DNA from: a virus
DNA length: 20,182 bases
Direction: 5' to 3' (one strand)
Virus record (IMG/VR): IMGVR_UViG_3300008108_000666
Location: 1-20,182 of that record
Each line of letters starts with the position of its first letter. The first letter of the stretch is position 1. The position numbers were made by a program, and so were the translations under genes. The notes under the pieces were generated by a model that was given only the letters and a program-made list of their open reading frames with translations, did no database searches and had not been told where the DNA came from. Positions 11,406 to 19,878 of this stretch are shown here, piece after piece.

Positions 11406-12092
11406 TTATTTCCCTGTTTTATTGAGCGACAGGGTGGAATCGAACCCCTCCTTCAAGCTGGAAGCCTGATGTGCTACCGGTAACACTTCTGTCGCATTTG
11501 TTTCTTTTCTTGGATATGATATACTTAACGATTTGCAGAAAGGTATAAAACTTTTGTCAATGGGGTAAATATATTTCCATTTAGGTTTTGTTTTTAATAC
11601 TTTAACATTTAAACCTTTTTTTCTTAATTCAATAGCTGAAGATGTTCCATATCTGCTACATAAAGTTCTTCTGTGTTCTCTTTTACCATTAACTATTAAG
11701 TTTGTATCTGTTGAAAATCCTGTGTATATCCAATTTGTAGCTTGGTATATCGTTCCAAAATGACCTTGTTCACTATCTGCATAACTTACTACCAATTTAC
11801 ATAATGGCAGGTTTTTCTTAATTAGCTTTAATGCTATTGAAAGTGCTTTACTTGTTAATTCATGCTTACCATTTAAAGCTATTCTAACTAATTCCACTAC
11901 TTGACCTTGTTTAAGTCCATAAGGTTCAGCAAGATTATTTGTTGCACCACTTCCGAACAAAATAACACCACACCATTCATTTTTATCATTAAATACTGAA
12001 AAGCCAGTGACATTTACAGGTACTGCTTTTGCATAATGAAAATTCATGCAAGCATATTTTATAGCTTTATATGATGCTTTTTCTAATCTCAT
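11406..12092 (-). CDS. Mom-like adenine modification protein
   Basis: A 228-residue protein that resembles phage Mu Mom, which converts adenine in DNA to N6-carbamoylmethyladenine and so blocks host restriction enzymes. Visible family features are QVVELVRIALNG (64-75) and the strongly conserved block VSYADSEQGHFGTIYQATNW with IYTG after it (102-125). A basic region follows (KREHRRTLC). The ATG at 12092 overlaps the ParB-like stop as ATGA. Residues 200-223 are encoded by the bases of the tRNA-Gly gene, so the natural C-terminus may have ended near residue 198 or been altered by tRNA acquisition. The gene looks more AT-rich than the terminase genes next to it, which suggests later acquisition. 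Confidence 0.75.
   Translation of the reverse strand: MRLEKASYKAIKYACMNFHYAKAVPVNVTGFSVFNDKNEWCGVILFGSGATNNLAEPYGLKQGQVVELVRIALNGKHELTSKALSIALKLIKKNLPLCKLVVSYADSEQGHFGTIYQATNWIYTGFSTDTNLIVNGKREHRRTLCSRYGTSSAIELRKKGLNVKVLKTKPKWKYIYPIDKSFIPFCKSLSISYPRKETNATEVLPVAHQASSLKEGFDSTLSLNKTGK
11425..11495 (-). tRNA. tRNA-Gly(UCC), overlapping the 3' end of the Mom-like gene
   Basis: Folding by eye on the minus strand gives a complete cloverleaf of 71 bases. The acceptor stem is GCGACAG/CTGTCGC (7 perfect pairs), the D arm GTGT/GCAC with GG in the loop, the anticodon arm TCAGG/CTTGA with loop CTTCCAG (anticodon TCC at 11462-11460), and the T loop TTCGATT is canonical. The T stem is weak (AGGGG against CCACC, only three pairs), the variable loop is three bases and no CCA is encoded. 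It may be functional or slightly decayed. It would supply glycine for GGA codons and must be cut from the operon transcript. Confidence 0.75.
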
Positions 12093-18765: not shown

Positions 18766-19056
18766 ATGACACGAACTCAAGCACTAGCAAAGCACCTGTT
18801 AGCGGGTAAACCAGTAAGCATCAAAACAGCTTACAACTATTTCGGAATCAGTAATATTAGCAGGGAAGTGATAAGGTTAATTGAGCGACCTTTTGGAGTA
18901 ATCCTTACACGTACAAAAAAGGAAGGGAAAACGAAATACGGATCGTATTGCAATTGGATCGAATATAGTCTAATGACTAACAAGCTAAATGCAGCCGGGA
19001 TAAAAAAGCTAAAAAAATTCCTACAGGAAAGCCAAAATAAACAGAAAGTTTATTAA
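18766..19056 (+). CDS. Small winged helix-turn-helix protein
   Basis: A 96-residue basic protein from the ATG at 18766, 2 bases after the preceding stop. The N-terminus TRTQALAKHLLAGKPVSIKT followed by AYNYFGISNISREVIRLIER is a winged-helix type DNA-binding region, with a wing containing KKEGKTKYGSYCNWIEYSL. Proteins with this pattern are common in Bacteroidota phages. Placed directly before the initiator leader, it may regulate replication, but no direct evidence exists. Confidence 0.65.
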   Translation: MTRTQALAKHLLAGKPVSIKTAYNYFGISNISREVIRLIERPFGVILTRTKKEGKTKYGSYCNWIEYSLMTNKLNAAGIKKLKKFLQESQNKQKVY

Positions 19057-19061
19057 ATTTG
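19054..19061 (+). promoter_or_regulatory. -7 promoter element before the initiator leader RNA
   Basis: TAAATTTG matches TAnnTTTG exactly and overlaps the TAA of the preceding gene. No TTTG is found at the expected -33 distance. Transcription would start near 19067, exactly at the beginning of the structured leader. Confidence 0.45.
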
Positions 19062-19065
19062 TAAA

Positions 19066-19150
19066 CGATGAGTAACGGCATCACTTTAACTTTTTAGCCT
19101 GGATGGAATAGCTGCGACCGTTACCGCACTATTCTTGAAGGGCTTTTTTA
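19066..19150 (+). ncRNA. Structured leader RNA with predicted pseudoknot before the initiator gene
   Basis: Pairings found by eye: an inner hairpin GAATAG/CTATTC (19106-19111 with 19129-19134) continued, after one bulged C, by TGCG/CGCA (19113-19116 with 19125-19128), with an 8-base loop ACCGTTAC. Seven loop bases, CCGTTAC (19118-19124), are complementary to GTAACGG at 19072-19078, giving a pseudoknot. An outer stem AGCC/GGCT (19096-19099 with 19141-19144) is followed by six T and ends six bases before the start codon. The pieces fit a cis-acting attenuator, a riboswitch-like element or a small separate RNA. It does not match any riboswitch class I recognise. Confidence 0.6.
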
Positions 19151-19155
19151 TTTTT

Positions 19156-19878
19156 ATGAATAAAGACGCATTTTACTTTCCGCATTTCAGCAATGCAAGG
19201 AACGACCGCAAAATATTAAGACTGCGAAGGGAACTAGGTACTGAAGGATATGGCATTTATTTTATGATTCTTGAGATACTTAGGGACTCAACAGATTACA
19301 AATATCCATTGCAAGATATTGATCTGCTTGCAGATGAATTTAAAGTAAGTGAACCTAAAGTTAAAACAGTTATTTGTAACTATAATCTATTTGAAGTTGA
19401 TCAAAATGAAATGTTTTTTAGCGCTAAATTTAACGAATACCTTGCCCCTTATATCAGGATGAAAGAGCAAAGGAGATTAGCCGGAATAGCAAGCGCTTCA
19501 AAAAGATTAAACTCAACAACCGCTCAACAACCGCTGAACGACCGTTCAACGACCGTTCAACAAAGTAAAGGAAAGGAAATAAAAGAAAGTAAAGTAAATA
19601 AAGTAAATAAAGGAAATATATTTACACCACCACAGATAGAAGAAGTTAAATTATTCTTTGAAGAAAACGGATATGTAAACGGTGAGAAGGCATGGAATTA
19701 TTACAACGATGCAGACTGGAAGGATAGCACCGGAAAGCCTGTAAAGAATTGGAAACAGAAAATGCGAGGCGTATGGTTTAAAGATGAAAACCGAAAGCCA
19801 GCACCAAAAGAAAGAATATTAACCTTATCAGAATTAATCGAACAAAAAAAAGCAGAAGGCGATGAAAACTATTTTTAA
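19156..19878 (+). CDS. Replication initiator, Lin1244/Lin1753 (DUF4373) and DnaD-like domains
   Basis: A 240-residue protein from the ATG at 19156 (MNKDAFYFPHFSNARNDRKI); a longer frame would need a TTG at 19135 in the leader hairpin. Residues 1-100 are the winged-helix Lin1244/Lin1753 type domain, with KILRLRRELGTEGYGIYFMI as its core. Residues 117-155 are a low-complexity linker encoded by the 11-bp repeats and the purine tract. Residues about 156-207 (FTPPQIEEVKLFFEENGYV, then WNYYNDADWKDSTGKPVKNW) resemble the C-terminal DnaD-like region. Such proteins initiate phage replication and load helicase. As in lambda O, the origin probably lies within the gene. Its stop overlaps the next gene by 17 bases. 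Confidence 0.8.
   Translation: MNKDAFYFPHFSNARNDRKILRLRRELGTEGYGIYFMILEILRDSTDYKYPLQDIDLLADEFKVSEPKVKTVICNYNLFEVDQNEMFFSAKFNEYLAPYIRMKEQRRLAGIASASKRLNSTTAQQPLNDRSTTVQQSKGKEIKESKVNKVNKGNIFTPPQIEEVKLFFEENGYVNGEKAWNYYNDADWKDSTGKPVKNWKQKMRGVWFKDENRKPAPKERILTLSELIEQKKAEGDENYF
19512..19566 (+). repeat. Iteron-like array B within the initiator gene: five 11-bp repeats
   Basis: Units are CTCAACAACCG (19512-19522), CTCAACAACCG (19523-19533), CTGAACGACCG (19534-19544), TTCAACGACCG (19545-19555) and TTCAACAAAGT (19556-19566). Eleven is not a multiple of three, so the repeat runs through all codon phases and encodes an unstructured Ser/Thr/Gln-rich linker; selection on the DNA is more likely than on the protein. 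The core AACGACCGTT is nearly palindromic. It is probably the initiator binding region of the replication origin. Confidence 0.85.
19567..19620 (+). other. AT-rich purine tract beside iterons B, probable origin unwinding region
   Basis: The tract directly follows the iterons and consists of A/G-rich units such as AAAGTAAAGTAAATAAAG on the plus strand, encoding a Lys/Ser/Val linker. Iterons followed by an asymmetric AT-rich tract inside the initiator gene is the layout of the lambda origin. Array A has the same neighbour at 830-886. Confidence 0.65.

Follow-up and report, generated by a model that had tools for sequence, protein, structure and literature searches.

A kissing-loop leader RNA ahead of replication initiator genes in phages of probable Bacteroidota hosts

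Results and discussion

Architecture of the leader RNA

A leader RNA of roughly 90 bases, in which a first hairpin and a second, terminator-like one pair through their loops in a 7-bp kissing helix, is encoded directly ahead of a replication initiator gene in the window, the 20,182-base stretch of DNA analysed here, which constitutes an IMG/VR virus record. This architecture is derived from sequence and from comparison with homologues, in which the loop-loop helix is established by covariation. Leaders of this plan look like a family of RNA switches for virus replication genes that had previously gone unnamed, and the promoter box together with the isolated relatives suggests Bacteroidota as the host phylum. 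The leader and the genes flanking it comprise the following features:

18766–19056, + strand: upstream 96-aa gene, a constant neighbour of the element in class A (the homologues described below)
19054–19061, + strand: -7 promoter box TAAATTTG (consensus TAnnTTTG), recognized from sequence
19067–19082, + strand: hairpin P1, GATG[AGTAACGG]CATC, with a 4-bp stem (GATG/CATC) and an 8-nt loop, from sequence and folding
19072–19078, + strand: kissing strand 1, GUAACGG, in the P1 loop, with seven Watson-Crick pairs to 19118–19124
19083–19095, + strand: U-rich single-stranded linker between P1 and hairpin 2, from sequence
19096–19144, + strand: hairpin 2, from folding, with P2a–c pairs that covary in homologues
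19096–19100/19140–19144, + strand: outer stem P2a, AGCCU/GGGCU, with an internal loop next to it
19105–19111/19129–19135, + strand: stem P2b (7 pairs)
19112: bulged C between P2b and P2c
19113–19116/19125–19128, + strand: stem P2c (4 pairs)
19117–19124, + strand: apical loop of hairpin 2, ACCGUUAC, 8 nt (1 unpaired + 7)
19118–19124, + strand: kissing strand 2, CCGUUAC, the perfect complement of GUAACGG
19144–19149, + strand: T6 tract, which finishes the terminator-like fold (from sequence)
19156–19878, + strand: replication initiator gene, 240 aa, with a Lin1244_N domain (PF14297, 8.6e-14; phrog_2562, 1.7e-20)

An earlier note on this DNA had placed a compact pseudoknotted leader at 19066–19150, and the structure was confirmed at that position, including the 8-base loop of which seven bases are complementary to GTAACGG. 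The note had, however, treated GTAACGG as a linear upstream strand; it is in fact part of the loop of the 4-bp hairpin P1, which makes the arrangement a pair of kissing hairpins. The longer hairpin had been described as having 10 bp and one bulge, and while the bulged C was found, the number of pairs is 11 (7 + 4). The TAnnTTTG box was likewise found just before the fold, as had been noted; the upstream 96-aa gene ends with the TAA within TAAATTTG as its stop codon, and P1 begins five bases after the end of the box. In Flavobacterium the -7 box spans -12 to -5 (PMC9723704), and this position would place the transcript start at or next to P1. Hairpin 2 ends 11 nt before the initiator ATG (19156), which itself lies 89 nt past the first base of P1. 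That the leader ends at the start codon of an initiator, also part of the earlier description, is upheld by the matches of the encoded protein to PF14297 and to phrog_2562, a replication initiation protein.

The stretch folded better than 198 of 200 shuffles (z −2.45), using an energy model that cannot score the kissing helix. A strict descriptor was also applied, consisting of two hairpins with at least four Watson-Crick pairs and an 8-nt loop each, which share at least seven Watson-Crick loop-loop pairs. Of 60,000 dinucleotide-shuffled versions of the region, one matched it; related phage DNA, taken as 7,785 windows of 90 nt, gave one match as well. The arrangement had been judged unlikely to arise by chance, and these frequencies, together with the compensatory change in homologues, bear this out: conserved as it is across sequences, the two-hairpin kissing structure is beyond chance. 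A simple terminator scan missed the terminator-like hairpin of the window because of its internal loops.

Conservation and covariation in class A

Homologues of the window's leader, here called class A, were gathered by a motif scan and by searches with the downstream and upstream proteins. The class amounts to 21 distinct elements in phage contigs, all of which are recovered by the covariance model, and loci that were newly reached via the upstream protein, and not picked by their RNA, carry the leader anyway. Two pattern hits outside the gene context (L102 and L105) were without a complementary second loop.

In the kissing helix, 147 of 147 cells are Watson-Crick paired (n = 21) across 11 loop sequences, with changes on both sides at five of the seven pairs and the remaining two invariant. 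When the 3' partners were slid by 1–3 columns, pairing dropped from 96% to at most 51%. These counts are not circular, since the model to which the alignment was fitted held the P1 and P2 pairs and no kissing pairs. The stems of hairpin 2 (P2a–c) covary as well, and the check proposed in the earlier note, a search for compensatory changes in homologous leaders, thus gave a positive outcome for both the loop-loop helix and the hairpin-2 stems. The P1 stem is paired in all 21 elements and almost invariant; covariation therefore speaks neither for nor against it in class A. Parts of the linker, which measures 15–18 nt by alignment columns, are also invariant.

The placement of the element is equally constant, with a TAnnTT(T/A)G box 4–5 nt ahead of P1 and a distance of 88–92 nt from the P1 start to the ATG (21 of 21 in both cases). 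The terminator-like outer stem with T6 tract, which had been noted previously, stands for the window itself, but within class A a clean T-run following the stem is found only in the window and its relatives, and the U-rich tail is looser in most homologues. In most members no T-run adjoins the stem, so the output conserved in this class cannot be termination.

Loop pairs differ among close relatives, and the two copies within a single phage differ as well; the loops turn over at a rate similar to fourfold sites. Set against the tree of the upstream gene, every part of the element is scrambled, which makes recombination possible, and the exchange of loops may reflect this rather than selection. 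Positive selection on the loops was considered and dropped, as all parts of the element are without signal on the upstream-gene tree. Two other candidates were also rejected: a mini-ORF beginning in P1, the frame of which is broken by single-base indels in homologues, and a link of the kissing 7-mer to other sites in the phage (8 seen against 7.8 expected).

Genomic context

The class A element sits between a gene encoding 96–106 aa and the replication genes. The initiator keeps its place while its N-terminal domain varies (Lin1244_N, DUF1376-like or DUF6291), and the leader stays. Such swaps of the N-terminal domain, often with the same C-terminal module, are seen among the initiators of the window, L005, L008, L011, L013 and L024. 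In several phages the protein encoded next is one that we take to be a DnaB-type helicase.

At four loci (L021, L054, L055 and L061) a small gene now separates the leader from the initiator, and this gene's own ATG is found at the same spacing; similarly, in L058 a methyltransferase-like gene has entered and its ATG takes the same position. The position of the leader is also kept in L118, L150 and L166, where another gene follows. Two elements with different loop pairs are present in one phage in L058 (826–916 and 2476–2569) and also in L059. The first element of L058 precedes the methyltransferase-like gene and the second precedes the initiator; the latter lies behind an unrelated upstream gene, with the box and the spacer kept and the 96-aa neighbour absent. 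Because box and spacing are kept across inserted genes and in this second element, the box, the RNA and the spacing appear to form one cis-acting unit, and by its position the leader is strongly suggested to act on the gene directly behind it.

Within the initiator gene of the window, 11-bp iterons (CTCAACAACCG, CTGAACGACCG and TTCAACGACCG) are located at 19512–19555. The iteron core CGACCGTT, an 8-mer, occurs again in intergenic DNA at 909, 920 and 931; this stretch (905–940) has AT-rich runs resembling those beside the iterons of the initiator gene and is possibly a second or duplicated origin. The same core is also found inside hairpin 2 at 19115, probably by chance. Elsewhere in the window, a tRNA-Gly gene (11424–11495, − strand) overlaps the end of an ORF on the same strand (11406–12092).

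Related leader classes and isolated phages

A related initiator, used as the query, led to 56 loci outside the family of the window whose upstream sequence could be read, and 54 of these carry a leader of class B (30 loci) or class C (24 loci). Both classes have the architecture of class A in a different sequence, ahead of related initiator genes, and both have strong T-runs after hairpin 2. In class B, P1 is long and its loop of the GUAGGAG type; a small hairpin in the middle comes next, followed by AGCCAG..UGC[A CUCCUAC]GCA..CUGGCUUUUUUU. Its 17 distinct members have five loop sequences, with Watson-Crick pairing throughout the kissing helix (119/119), and P1 shows double changes at 9 of its 11 pairs. 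Class C reads AAUCGC[CUCACUAC AUUAUA]GCGAUU .. UUGG[AA GUAGUGAG]CCAA .. GAGGCAUUUUU and has seven distinct members, four loop sequences, stems that covary and an 8-bp kissing helix with 56/56 Watson-Crick pairs, a figure that is partly a matter of choice as the kissing strands were located by complementarity, so that the evidence lies in sequence change with complementarity kept. The tip stems are short (P2c of 3–4 bp) and the apical loops large (8–10 nt). The class A and class B models miss each other's members, the class B model having been run on the window and L005. The leader of L004 (2872–2999; L112), located before a related initiator, has a 5' end, GTGCGAAAAAAAACTTAC, that complements the loop of a terminator hairpin at 17 of 18 positions; this single case is possibly a further class.

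The same plan was found in isolated phages. An Elemovirus of Flavobacterium sp. BAL314 has three loop pairs (GUGAGAUG/CAUCUCAC, UGAGAGC/GCUCUCA and GUGGAGG/CCUCCAC), and the Polaribacter phages Danklef_1 and Freya_3 have GGUGGAA/UUCCACC, again with an 8-nt loop of 1 + 7. The permissive scan used on the isolates also matches loops in about 10% of random windows, and as the Polaribacter leaders offer no variation, their assignment rests on position and shape. For phages of Bacteroides fragilis and Porphyromonas with related initiators, no such leader was found in the stretches scanned.

Comparison with known systems

Comparison with Rfam at gathering score gave no relevant match, including to the covariance models of guanidine-IV and c4 (RF01695), and neither did a search of 18950–19250 at E ≤ 5, again including guanidine-IV. 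Phage and plasmid collections, searched for distant nucleotide similarity to classes A, B and C, yielded no homologue. A pattern scan of host-genome contigs produced 16 hits, none better than E 0.099 with the class A model R1. In larger genome sets, where stricter filters may lose weak matches, R1 found none in about 700 sampled Bacteroidota genomes, and the class B model R2 gave one weak hit in 395 genomes, an ordinary terminator without loop complementarity. No published description of the leader was found in the literature searched, and one may exist elsewhere.

The closest studied analogue is the guanidine-IV riboswitch (mepA), in which P1 kisses the loop of P2 and P2 is also the terminator; kissing opposes the terminator, and as P2 elongates the linker becomes shorter and the kissing is broken (PMC11611296). 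In classes A, B and C covariation likewise shows that a 5' hairpin kisses a terminator-like hairpin. Guanidine-IV, however, responds to a ligand, belongs to bacterial genes and keeps its loop bases conserved, whereas here the loops vary as pairs and a phage replication initiator gene follows. In the pT181-type attenuator of plasmid repC, kissing hairpins decide terminator formation before the initiator gene (PMC5435934). The leader described here is also located ahead of a replication initiator gene, but its two loops belong to a single transcript in all classes, whereas the kissing partner in pT181 is a separate antisense RNA made from the opposite strand.

Long-range loop pairing beside the initiator start codon also controls replication in IncB/IncI-alpha plasmids (ColIb-P9, pMU720), which rely on translation of a leader peptide and on an antisense RNA. 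The loop pairing near the initiator start is alike, whereas the possible P1 mini-ORF is not kept in frame here. The P4 CI RNA and the c4 antisense RNA (RF01695) are short phage RNAs before a replication or anti-repressor gene that act by base pairing and termination; they differ from the present leader in structure and host group, and no Rfam model was matched.

Proposed mechanism and alternatives

The earlier note had likened the fold to attenuation or copy-number control RNAs of plasmid initiator genes, or to a novel riboswitch-like class; its interpretation is supported in part, with attenuation, copy-number control and ligand binding as candidate functions. We consider it about an even bet (probability roughly 0.5) that the leader is a cis-acting, promoter-proximal attenuator module that sets the expression of phage replication genes. 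The module is made up of promoter box, 5' hairpin, linker and 3' hairpin; as its position shows, it starts at the promoter box, and the spacing between its end and the next start codon is constant, whichever gene that codon belongs to. As the polymerase leaves the promoter, P1 would fold first and would subsequently kiss the tip of hairpin 2. The linker would be barely long enough to allow kissing and a closed outer stem together, and the two would consequently compete. By our estimate, P1, the kissing helix and hairpin 2, if stacked end to end, would form a chain of about 31 layers or roughly 87 Å, a distance that 15–18 linker nt would span only when nearly extended, and opening of the outer stem would bring relief. 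Competition is thus favoured by the linker geometry as well as by the guanidine-IV precedent.

The outer stem would serve as a terminator in classes B, C, E and F and in the window, and would overlie the translation initiation region. It lies about 10–14 nt from the AUG, and translation is therefore probably affected too; mRNAs of Bacteroidetes are by nature without a Shine-Dalgarno sequence, and structure tunes their initiation (PMC6847099). The balance between kissing and closure of the outer stem would decide both read-through to the initiator and its translation, and a protein, another copy of the RNA or the state of growth may shift it. We infer the polarity, the trigger and whether the leader acts in cis or in trans, and the opposite polarity would give identical covariation.

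With that opposite polarity, kissing would assist hairpin 2 by nucleating a terminator that has a weak tip, and the kissed state would be OFF. The short tip stems (3–4 bp), the big loops (8–10 nt) and the fact that the kissing helix is always perfect are consistent with this reading, which we regard as unlikely, though the strongest of the alternatives, as kissing with a closed outer stem would strain the 15–18 nt linker (an estimate) and the closest studied analogue works in the opposite way (PMC11611296).

Action in trans seems somewhat less probable still. Terminated copies would here pair with nascent leaders by kissing between loop 1 of one molecule and loop 2 of the other, whereby gene dosage would be reported and replication copy number or superinfection (incompatibility) controlled without an antisense promoter; swapped loop pairs would act as specificity groups, in several of the leader classes. 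Mutually complementary loops make dimers possible, the strong terminators of classes B and C would release a small RNA, and the differences in loop pairs, seen among close relatives as well as in the phage with two copies, would fit. Promoter boxes are not in excess on the antisense strand: no consensus -7 box was found on it from 19054 to the window end, and the homologues have 8 boxes in 8,400 nt, where the background rate is 0.0007 per nt. The linker is nonetheless conserved in length and the distance is short, both of which favour pairing within one molecule, and the exchange of loops may be recombination, given that the whole element is scrambled when set against the tree of the neighbouring gene.

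T4 gene 32 is a precedent for a protein that represses its own operon through the leader, and a phage protein such as the initiator, the 96-aa neighbour or a single-strand binding protein could bind the present leader to the same end. The invariance of P1, of linker parts and of two kissing pairs, with the others varying, would fit recognition of shape and a few bases, and the 96-aa gene is a constant neighbour. The reading is nevertheless improbable, as the N-terminal domain of the initiator is swapped with the leader class unchanged and the second element of L058 lacks the 96-aa neighbour. That the element works as DNA (inverted repeats, a cruciform or origin hairpins) and not as RNA is very improbable: it adjoins an initiator gene carrying iteron-like repeats, but promoter box, element and start codon keep a fixed order and spacing, T-runs are confined to one strand, and where genes were inserted between element and initiator the spacing to the new ATG was kept.

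Implications

Replication initiators under the control of kissing loops have been known chiefly from plasmids that use antisense RNAs. The phage initiators considered here are related and are preceded by several leader classes that differ in sequence but have one architecture, with loop pairs that change freely and always together. The leaders thereby provide a comparative data set on the diversification of kissing loops and a source of naturally different loop pairs. They may also represent a first regulatory handle on replication in phages of Flavobacterium and Polaribacter, some of which have been cultured.
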